Assembly: GCA_014360995.1 (NCBI GenBank)
Contig: JACIWL010000004.1
Coordinates: 34,206-81,447 of the forward strand
DNA length: 47,242 nucleotides
DNA from: Candidatus Bipolaricaulota bacterium
GTDB taxonomy: Bacteria > Bipolaricaulota > Bipolaricaulia > Bipolaricaulales > Bipolaricaulaceae
Direction: 5' to 3'
Shown: in pieces, positions 3,839 through 10,144 of the stretch
Numbering within the stretch: the stretch's first letter is position 1
How the letters are laid out: every line of letters starts with the position of its first letter
Notes under the pieces: model-generated
What the model saw: the letters and a program-made list of their open reading frames with translations, nothing else
Told to the model about the DNA's origin: nothing
Database searches by the model: none
Made by a program: the position numbers and the translations under genes

Positions 3839-3915
<77 letters not shown>

Positions 3916-3967: not shown

Positions 3968-5215
3968 GTGGATCCGCTCTCTTTGGCGAGAAAGCTTTTG
4001 GAGGCAGGCCCCATCTGTGACTACTGCTTGGGGCGGCGCTTCGCCGGCCTTCCCGGGAAACTCTCAAACCTGGAGCGGGGAAGCCTCCTCCGCGGCGCCC
4101 TGGGGTTCAGCAACACCCCGCCCGAGAACTGCTGGGTGTGCGGCGGCGTTTTCCTGCGCGTCCCTTCCTGGGCAAAAAAGGCGCGGGATCTATCCCAAGA
4201 ACACGAGTTCAAAACTTTCCTCTTTGGGGTACACCTCTCCCCGCGCCTTGAGGCCACCGAGGAATTCTTGGCCGAACGTTTCCCCTCACCCTGGGCCGAG
4301 CCCATTAGGCGCCACTTAAATCGCACATTGGGCCAAGCCTTCGCCGAACTCCTCCGCGAGGAAGGCCGAGAGGTCACGGTGGATTACGCCCACCCCAATG
4401 TGCAATTCCTAGTGGACATCGAGCAAGACGAGGTACAGCTTCAGGTGAACCCCGTGGTTTTTTATGGACGGTACCGAAAACTCGTGCGGGGCATTGCCCA
4501 GACGGCCTGGACCTGCCCCCGTTGTCGGGGTAAAGGCTGCGAGGTGTGTGGAGGAACGGGGAAACTGGCGGCCAACTCCGTGGAAGAGCTCGTGCTTCCG
4601 GTGTTCCTTGAGGCCACGGGCGGGAACGGAGGGAGCTTCCATGGGGCAGGCCGGGAGGATGCCGATGCGCGGATGCTCGGCCGGGGCCGGCCCTTCCTTC
4701 TCACTGTAGAGTGGCCCCGCCGCCGCACGGTGGACCTCGCCTGGGTGGCCGAGGAGGTGCGGCGACGAAGCCAAGGAGCAGTAGAGCTTTTGGACCTTCA
4801 GCCCGCCACCCCTGAGCTTGAGGAGAAGGTGAAAGCGGGGAAATTCGCCAAGCGCTACTGGGCCAAGATCACCTTTCTTGCCCCTGTCTCCGAGGAGGCC
4901 TTCCAGCGGGCGGTGGCCGGGATCAGGGGGGAGATCCTCCAGCGCACGCCGGAGCGCGTCAGTCACCGGCGGGCGGATTTGGTGCGCCGCCGCCGGGTTT
5001 TCTCCGCCCACGGCCGGCTCCTCTCCCCCACCGAGGCCGAGCTAGTGCTCACCTGTGAGGCTGGCCTGTACGTGAAGGAGCTCGTCTCCGGGGACCAGGG
5101 TCGCACTAAGCCCAGCCTCTCCGAACTCCTTGGCGTCCCGGCCCAGGTCACCGCCCTGGACGTCCTGGAGATCCTAGACAACACAAGCGTTGAGGTCCCC
5201 GATTCCGAGGGATAG
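3968..5215 (+). CDS. pus10: Archaeal-type tRNA pseudouridine synthase Pus10
   Basis: A 415-residue protein matching archaeal Pus10, which isomerises U55 (and in many archaea U54) of tRNA to pseudouridine. The N-terminus has paired zinc ligands (CDYC near residues 18-21 and CWVC near 57-60). A THUMP-like region follows, then a second CPRCRGKGCEVC cluster. The catalytic block GREDADARMLGRGRPF is near residues 228-243, and the C-terminal VKELVSGDQGRTKPS is diagnostic. GTG at 3968 is chosen because earlier in-frame codons read antisense through the tRNA-Pro gene; no strong ribosome site is visible, and TTGCCC-17-GAAAAT (3933-3961) could make a near-leaderless mRNA. Bacteria normally use TruB for position 55, so transfer from archaea is likely. 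Confidence 0.92.
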   Translation: MDPLSLARKLLEAGPICDYCLGRRFAGLPGKLSNLERGSLLRGALGFSNTPPENCWVCGGVFLRVPSWAKKARDLSQEHEFKTFLFGVHLSPRLEATEEFLAERFPSPWAEPIRRHLNRTLGQAFAELLREEGREVTVDYAHPNVQFLVDIEQDEVQLQVNPVVFYGRYRKLVRGIAQTAWTCPRCRGKGCEVCGGTGKLAANSVEELVLPVFLEATGGNGGSFHGAGREDADARMLGRGRPFLLTVEWPRRRTVDLAWVAEEVRRRSQGAVELLDLQPATPELEEKVKAGKFAKRYWAKITFLAPVSEEAFQRAVAGIRGEILQRTPERVSHRRADLVRRRRVFSAHGRLLSPTEAELVLTCEAGLYVKELVSGDQGRTKPSLSELLGVPAQVTALDVLEILDNTSVEVPDSEG

Positions 5216-8384: not shown

Positions 8385-8800
8385 CTCTGCTTGCCATCAG
8401 AAGGATTCCAGTCCGCAAGCCAAAACGGGGAGGAAGGGCAACCGCGGCACTCCTTTTTGTAGCGCGGGCACTCCGGGCAATAGGCCCCGCAGGGGGCGCG
8501 GTCGCCTTCGGTCGGGGAATGCCGAGGCTCCATCCGGAGGGGAAAGGCCGGCCGATCGGTGACGTAGACCGCCGCCCGCACCAAACCCAAGGTGATCTCT
8601 GGATTTTCCGCCACCGCCTGAAGCCACCAGGCCCGGTCGCTGTCCGCGTAGAACACGCCGACGACCATCCTCCCAAACGCGGCAAGAAAATAGACATAGG
8701 GGCAACCCGAGAAGACCTCGGCGATCTTCTCCGCAGCCGCTTCCGTGGGCGCTTCCCCCAAAAGAAGGTAGCACTTCTGCTCGGCTAGCGGTTTTTCCAT
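8381..8800 (-). CDS. Hypothetical protein with C-terminal Cys-rich motif
   Basis: A 139-residue protein I do not recognise as a whole. The first 95 residues look like a compact alpha/beta domain with no clear signature. The C-terminus has CGAYCPECPRYKKECRGC (about residues 107-124), a CGxYCxxCxxY...CxGC pattern like that of DUF3795 proteins and suited to binding zinc or an Fe-S cluster. The ATG at 8800 lies inside the end of the upstream P-loop gene (16-base overlap), so the two are co-translated and may work together. Function is unknown. Confidence 0.7.
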   Translation of the reverse strand: MEKPLAEQKCYLLLGEAPTEAAAEKIAEVFSGCPYVYFLAAFGRMVVGVFYADSDRAWWLQAVAENPEITLGLVRAAVYVTDRPAFPLRMEPRHSPTEGDRAPCGAYCPECPRYKKECRGCPSSPFWLADWNPSDGKQS

Positions 8801-10065
8801 AGCTGATAGAGCTCCTCCAACGCCGGTCGGAACCGGCGGGAAAAATCGGCCACGCTCTTGGGCTCCGGCTCATTGTACACCGTAACGTACGGAACCCTAA
8901 AACTCCCCAAAGAAAGATAGCCCGCTTCGCTGGGAGCGAGAGTATACCAGTCATCGTCCGCATAAGTGCGGGCCATTTCCTCCTCGGGGACGGAGTGGGT
9001 GAGGATGCCGTCCCGGCGATCCCGATCGTAGCGAGCGCGGTTCCGCCGGAGCGATTCCTGATAGGAGACGTGGAGGTAAAGGATGGCCCCACCCTCAAGG
9101 ACATAGGGGGTGAGCCTGGCCAGGGCCCGGCGGTAAGCCTGAGCGCCGCCGCGGGAGAACTCCACGATCACCGTTTCCCCGCTTCGCGCGGGAACCTTTT
9201 CGATTTCTTCGTTTACGCGGAGGATGAGGAAATCCCAGAGGCAGTCGTCGGAAACAGCATAATTTTCCCCAACCCGGCGGGAGTACCTCCGGCCGCAACC
9301 CAGCTCCTCCCACAGGTCGTCCTCGCGAAACTTTTCCCAAAGGAACGGAAAATCATCGATGACGCGGAGAAAACCGAGGTGGTAGGCCTGAGCCCGCTCG
9401 GAAAGGGGGAGATACTGCAAAAACTGGATTAGCTCGGACTTACCAGCGGCAGGGCGGCCAAGAAGGATGAGGTAGGGAAGGACTTCTTGCACGGGGCAAC
9501 CCGTATACGAAAGGCCGAGGAGTTTTGCCACCTCGGCCACCACCTCCCACGGGGCCTGATCGGCGTTGATGACCTCCACCCGATCTCCCCGGCGGGCGTG
9601 CCACGCGGAGAGCCAGGCCAGCATGGGAAGGAGGATTTCCTTTGGCACCGTGTACCTCGGGTCGCCGCGCGCCTCTTGGCGCCAAAGGGAAACCTCTACT
9701 GGCGCTTCCAGTCGCAGGAAAAGATCGGGCCAGAGGATCTGGGCCTCTAGCTCCTGAAAGGCCGCACATAATTCCGCGTCGCCCAAGATCGCCGAATAGG
9801 CCGCATGCACCGCCAGATGCGAGTCCTCCAGGACCATTTTCCCTTCTTCCAGGGCCTTATGGATGAGGGCTTGCCTTTCGGGAAGCCTTTTTAAAATGGC
9901 CTGGTTTAGGCGGGGACGATCGCGAAAAAGGTCGAGTTTTTTCTCCTCGGCCACCTCCTTCACGAGCTCCGGAAGGACGAGGAGTTTCTCGGGGAAATAG
10001 AGACGGAGGAGGGCGAGGACCTCGCTCTTCCCCAAAGCTGGAAATCCCTCGATGGCGATATACAT
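8785..10065 (-). CDS. Double P-loop nucleoside/nucleotide-kinase-like protein
   Basis: A 426-residue protein that looks like two P-loop kinase domains in tandem. Domain 1 has MYIAIEGFPALGKSE at the extreme N-terminus, LEDSHLAVHAAYSA (like the DR/ERS region of deoxynucleoside kinases) and PDLFLRLEAPVEV, as in thymidylate kinases. Domain 2 opens with LLGRPAAGKSE near residue 210 and later has VIVEFSRGG and an Arg-rich lid-like stretch. I cannot name the substrate. The ATG at 10065 is only 6 bases after the tRNA-Val 3' end; those bases are all T and no ribosome site exists. A longer frame from 10101 would run into the tRNA. A small Cys-rich protein is co-translated downstream. Confidence 0.75.
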   Translation of the reverse strand: MYIAIEGFPALGKSEVLALLRLYFPEKLLVLPELVKEVAEEKKLDLFRDRPRLNQAILKRLPERQALIHKALEEGKMVLEDSHLAVHAAYSAILGDAELCAAFQELEAQILWPDLFLRLEAPVEVSLWRQEARGDPRYTVPKEILLPMLAWLSAWHARRGDRVEVINADQAPWEVVAEVAKLLGLSYTGCPVQEVLPYLILLGRPAAGKSELIQFLQYLPLSERAQAYHLGFLRVIDDFPFLWEKFREDDLWEELGCGRRYSRRVGENYAVSDDCLWDFLILRVNEEIEKVPARSGETVIVEFSRGGAQAYRRALARLTPYVLEGGAILYLHVSYQESLRRNRARYDRDRRDGILTHSVPEEEMARTYADDDWYTLAPSEAGYLSLGSFRVPYVTVYNEPEPKSVADFSRRFRPALEELYQLWKNR

Positions 10066-10071
10066 AAAAAA

Positions 10072-10144
10072 TGGGCGGAGGAGGACTTGAACCCCCGACA
10101 TCTCCCCCGTGAAGGGAGCGCTCTACCAGCTGAGCTATCCGCCC
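10072..10144 (-). tRNA. tRNA-Val (CAC)
   Basis: A 73-base minus-strand cloverleaf up to the discriminator A. The acceptor stem is GGGCGGA/TCCGCCC, the anticodon stem CTCCC/GGGAG has loop TTCACGG (anticodon CAC), and the T-loop is TTCAAGT. CCA is not encoded; the discriminator is followed by six T and then the next gene's ATG. Confidence 0.96.

Follow-up and report, generated by a model that had tools for sequence, protein, structure and literature searches.

The window, meaning the whole stretch of 47,242 nucleotides from a Candidatus Bipolaricaulota bacterium that was analysed here, contains on its forward strand, at positions 3968–5215, a gene (pus10) for a tRNA pseudouridine synthase of the Pus10 family. 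The predicted product has 415 residues and starts at a GTG codon, a plausible choice because the frame upstream crosses a tRNA-Pro(TGG) gene (3839–3915, reverse strand, located with ARAGORN) and the N-terminus (MDPL..AGPICD.CLG) can be aligned with those of relatives. The tRNA gene lies directly upstream of pus10 in divergent orientation; it has both U54 and U55 and is a likely source of Pus10 substrate. The T-loops of all 45 tRNAs of the source genome (1.29 Mb, 86% complete) read U54-U55-C56-R57-A58.

The reading frame matches the Pfam families Pus10_C (192 bits, 1e-56, with a cut-off of 27) and Pus10_THUMP_arc (PF22023; 52 bits, 6.5e-14), the latter corresponding to a THUMP-related tRNA-binding domain at residues 68–150 (4169–4417). 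An AlphaFold2 model of the protein (mean pLDDT 92.4) finds human PUS10 (2v9k) as its best match in the PDB with an E value of 6e-31, and the next pseudouridine synthase follows at 1e-9. In alignments of bacterial and archaeal relatives four CxxC pairs are invariant or nearly so: C17/C20 and C55/C58 are N-terminal cysteines of zinc-binding type (4016–4141), and C183/C186 and C191/C194 make up a second cysteine knuckle within residues 177–202 (4496–4573). The catalytic block GREDADARML (residues 228–237; 4649–4678) is invariant in all relatives, and Asp231, within the pattern GRED.D.R.LG, is presumed to be the catalytic nucleophile by homology to known Pus10 proteins. A further block near the C-terminus, VKELVSGDQGRTKPS (residues 369–383; 5072–5116), is conserved in the alignment. 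In its domains, zinc cysteines, catalytic block and fold the protein is like the archaeal Pus10 of Methanocaldococcus jannaschii and Pyrococcus furiosus (COG1258). The sequence-only reading had picked out the Pus10 cysteines, the GREDADARML block and the C-terminal block, and it is borne out by the Pfam matches, the alignments and the fold: the frame is confirmed as a complete, intact and true Pus10 of archaeal type. Its enzymatic activity and the position that it modifies are inferred, there being no activity data.

The genes around pus10 are ordinary bacterial ones, as had been judged from the sequence alone, and encode an undecaprenyl diphosphate synthase, a CdsA-type cytidylyltransferase, a member of the thiamine-binding-protein family, a PD-(D/E)XK nuclease and the products of a pyruvate:ferredoxin oxidoreductase operon. 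The order uppS-cdsA-DUF77-tldD-pus10-PDDEXK-por is repeated in six other genomes of the window's genus, these being the ones readable at this locus, some of them interrupted by contig ends.

Distribution of Pus10 and TruB

Among tRNA modifications, pseudouridine at position 55 (Psi55) is held to be the most universal (PMC7912444, PMC9957541), and the same reviews place Pus10 in Archaea and some Eukarya and not in Bacteria (likewise PMC5682645). Pus10_C is nonetheless present in 83 of 100 Bipolaricaulota genomes (mean completeness 85%) and in 35 of the 38 of high quality, and Pus10 is retained across all nine families of the phylum. A search for truB, the check proposed in the sequence-only reading, found no TruB or Cbf5 domain in the source genome or in any of the 100 phylum genomes (TruB_N, 0/100). 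That TruB was overlooked through genome incompleteness can be ruled out, since RluA/RsuA-type synthases, which served as a positive control, are detected in 96 of the same 100 genomes. The TruB_N model itself was positive in all 14 control genomes. Two essentially closed genomes (G004 and G005, each a single contig and 96–99% complete) have Pus10 and no TruB. The presence of Pus10 in 83 genomes and the absence of TruB from all 100, the essentially closed ones included, support the view that Pus10 replaces TruB instead of acting beside it, which was one of the three options given in the sequence-only reading, and Bipolaricaulota as a whole phylum appears to have swapped TruB for archaeal Pus10. 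The substitution, on this scale, of a core bacterial tRNA enzyme by its archaeal counterpart shows that the translation machinery is, in this part, open to exchange between domains.

Elsewhere among bacteria Pus10 was absent from all 289 genomes sampled outside Bipolaricaulota, the 83 positives among 389 genomes lying within the phylum. When the genomes of 84,980 species were scanned, the best 80 matches came only from Bipolaricaulota and archaea, with the named bacteria among these 80 being Bipolaricaulota/Acetothermia; Pus10 in further bacteria, below these 80, remains possible. A literature search, outside which most subscription journals fall, returned no description of a bacterial Pus10 or of bacterial m1Psi54, and automatic database annotation of Bipolaricaulota genes as Pus10 likely exists already. 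The enzyme family is a known one. New are its occurrence in a bacterial host, its substitution for TruB across the phylum, the proposed use of an archaeal T-loop pathway by bacteria, and the pairing of Pus10 with TrmFO described below. Compared with archaeal Pus10 systems, the host is bacterial and neither Cbf5 nor TruB is found in Bipolaricaulota. It has also been remarked that known ribosome biogenesis factors are unusually scarce in the phylum (PMC12641178). Separately, TruA (PF01416), which had been chosen as a positive control, is missing phylum-wide as well, with only weak matches in 3 of the 100 genomes, within frames of ~1,060 codons; this bears on the synthesis of Psi38-40 in Bipolaricaulota.

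Phylogenetic origin of pus10 and trmY

In the Pus10 trees the main Bipolaricaulota clade (support 100/96) lies among euryarchaeal proteins, joined to Haloarchaea (90/87), and the branching within it tracks the taxonomic families. The sequence-only reading had suggested building such a tree and had named two outcomes that would refute it, placement in a distinct bacterial family of different function and mis-assembly of the contig with archaeal DNA. The first is not seen, the window protein being nested within archaeal Pus10. As for the second, contamination or mis-assembly might be suspected of any bacterial record of a family that the literature treats as archaeal and eukaryotic, but it is ruled out by the recurrence of the gene order in the genus's six other readable genomes and by the occurrence of Pus10 in 83 of 100 phylum genomes, whose clades moreover follow taxonomy, and we give it practically no weight. 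The claim of an archaeal Pus10 in a bacterium therefore holds, in a broader and stronger form than first stated.

A similar history is indicated for TrmY, the enzyme that methylates Psi54 made by Pus10 (PMC9508554). Bacterial TrmY proteins are split off from the rest of their tree by one branch (90/79), and they are joined to Haloarchaea (98/97), inside the euryarchaeal genes. In many archaea the two genes are neighbors: of the 33 euryarchaeal loci that show both on the available stretch, 32 have trmY directly upstream of pus10 and in the same orientation, within about 400 bases in 30 of these. The same arrangement, within about 130 bases, is found at 11 Thermoproteota loci, where the neighbor was confirmed as a member of the TrmY family in the three cases tested. 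In Bipolaricaulota trmY stands apart from pus10, in contrast to its adjacency in many archaea. The agreement of the two trees, taken with the archaeal adjacency, makes a joint transfer into the ancestor of the phylum the simplest reading and suggests that pus10 and trmY were transferred together, although this co-transfer is inferred.

One family (f2) complicates the Pus10 tree, as its proteins fall outside the main clade on long branches and in an unstable position. Several separate origins of Pus10 within Bipolaricaulota were considered on this account, and although family f2 lies apart, an AU test does not reject a single bacterial clade (p 0.149). This family (G040-G045; L189, L207, L214, L221, L223) has a fast-evolving Pus10 and no TrmY (0/6 genomes), TrmFO or TrmA, and the Pus10 of one member (G045, L221) is without the second cysteine knuckle.

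Partner enzymes at position 54

TrmY is present in 79 of the 100 Bipolaricaulota genomes, and in 79 of 86 once the window's genus and family f2 are set aside, a group in which Pus10 is widespread too. A Bipolaricaulota TrmY from outside the window's genus is much closer to archaeal TrmY (COG1901), scoring 155 bits to MJ1640 versus 65 bits to the Vibrio paralog VC_A1059. None of the eight genomes of the window's genus has TrmY, and it is on this agreement among all eight that its absence from the incomplete source genome rests. No match above the cut-off to the TrmA/RlmD family was found in Bipolaricaulota, the source genome included. (Three archaeal genomes of ~1.0 Mb labelled Methanosarcinales/Methanocellales – G100, G101 and G104, with loci L042, L044 and L051 – also have Pus10 with no TrmY match; most other searched archaea differ.)

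The window's genus has TrmFO. It occurs in seven of the eight genomes, at full length in six (>600 bits, cut-off 429) and as one split copy, and full-length TrmFO is found in none of the 92 Bipolaricaulota genomes outside the genus. These counts take only TIGR00137 matches above 220 bits; an initial tally of 81/100 was discarded as evidence for TrmFO, being mostly short matches below 70 bits. The genus TrmFO scores 721 bits to that of T. thermophilus and has both motif cysteines (in CSNSLGG and EGCIP). The split copy is that of the source genome, where trmFO is divided over two contig ends (G000:C21:1-983, L233, and G000:C19:1-528, L234) that overlap by more than 100 bases beside a tRNA gene; this is an assembly break and not a broken gene. 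The phylum-wide scope, the occurrence of TrmY in most relatives and the exchange of TrmY for TrmFO in the genus all lie beyond what could be seen from the window alone.

The two arrangements have archaeal counterparts, as M. jannaschii makes m1Psi54 and Psi55, with TrmY alongside Pus10, and P. furiosus makes m5U54 and Psi55, with an m5U54 enzyme alongside Pus10 (PMC7912444). By the distribution of partner enzymes, most of the phylum has the M. jannaschii set and the window's genus an equivalent of the P. furiosus set, with the difference that the m5U54 enzyme is folate-dependent TrmFO in the genus and TrmU54 in archaea. Since TrmY is present in most of the phylum, TrmA is not found and TrmFO is confined to one genus, the T-loop of most Bipolaricaulota is predicted to be the archaeal m1Psi54-Psi55, so that m1Psi is predicted in bacterial tRNA. 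In the window's genus the predicted end product, m5U54-Psi55, is the same as that of the bacterial route through TruB and TrmFO or TrmA, but the Psi55 enzyme is from another family, TruB being missing across the phylum.

Might Pus10 instead modify a different RNA, leaving tRNA U55 unmodified in Bipolaricaulota? There are no biochemical data for these proteins, and human PUS10 has additional roles (PMC9957541). Four observations speak against it. First, Pus10 is kept in all nine families while TruB is absent. Second, the window protein has the archaeal type of THUMP domain. Third, the U54-U55 substrate is conserved in 45 of 45 tRNAs. Fourth, Pus10 is retained jointly with TrmY, which requires Psi54 made by Pus10. 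We consider it very improbable that tRNA is not the substrate, and prefer a role in tRNA.

Substitutions in Pus10 of the window's genus

If only those positions are counted that both archaea and the other Bipolaricaulota conserve, Pus10 of the window's genus carries nine substitutions (P177A, Y201A, V244L, E246T, N265R, A268S, V285E, A293F and G365A), whereas the 11 comparison clades have between 0 and 4 such changes each. All nine lie within the catalytic domain. The segment around the second cysteine knuckle (residues 177–202) shows P182T, R184P and P202A as genus-specific in addition to P177A and Y201A. Two of the nine, V285E and A293F, are in a helix-loop (residues 282–293; 4811–4846) just ahead of K295-x-Y297, which in the AlphaFold2 model sits between strands 272–279 and 294–303, and which we putatively assign, by analogy to RluA, as the forefinger loop. 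As far as sequence can indicate, the nine substitutions would fit a narrowing of Pus10 to U55 once TrmFO had taken over U54; the link from substitution to specificity is inferred.

The residues R168, R170 and Y297 are unchanged in the genus. Tyr297 and the arginines of GRYRK may correspond to the residues that are reported to determine Psi54 formation by archaeal Pus10, and as they are intact, loss of activity on U54 is not proven by sequence. Their conservation leaves room for a Pus10 that still acts on both U54 and U55 in the genus, as the TrmY-bearing relatives presumably make Psi54, with TrmFO acting on another RNA (e.g. 23S rRNA) or competing with Pus10 at U54 of some tRNAs. Relatives of TrmFO can indeed act on rRNA (RlmFO in mycoplasmas), which counts against the reading favored here. 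However, that TrmY has gone from all eight genomes and that the genus has also acquired TrmFO is consistent with a switch at U54, and the cluster of catalytic-domain substitutions is found in this genus and in none of the eleven comparison clades, so that retained two-site activity seems unlikely.

We therefore hold it probable that Pus10 came from a euryarchaeon, that TruB was lost phylum-wide, and that in the window's genus Pus10 serves U55 only and TrmFO provides m5U54. The ancestor of Bipolaricaulota would have acquired a functional pus10, probably together with trmY; Pus10 would then have taken over Psi55 synthesis in tRNA, and TruB would have been lost. The THUMP domain and the zinc-bound N-terminal part may hold the acceptor and T arm of the tRNA while the catalytic domain, with Asp231, would isomerise U55 and, in most of the phylum, U54 too, with TrmY predicted to methylate the resulting Psi54 to m1Psi54. 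The window's genus would have lost TrmY and gained TrmFO, giving m5U54, and its Pus10 may have become restricted to U55 through changes inferred to lie near the active site. With somewhat less assurance, we favor the fuller scheme in which jointly captured Pus10 and TrmY replaced TruB and TrmA/TrmFO and give m1Psi54-Psi55 in most of the phylum, with one genus reverting to m5U54 through gain of TrmFO and loss of TrmY as its Pus10 went from two sites to U55 only. If so, the genus replays within Bacteria the split between Methanocaldococcus and Pyrococcus. It offers a natural experiment on the gain and loss of U54 activity, and the two-site specificity of Pus10 becomes testable with closely related proteins (~60% identity).

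Elsewhere in the window, positions 8788–10101 (reverse strand) encode a 438-residue protein with weak thymidylate kinase and AAA matches in its two halves, apparently a fused double nucleoside-kinase-like protein.
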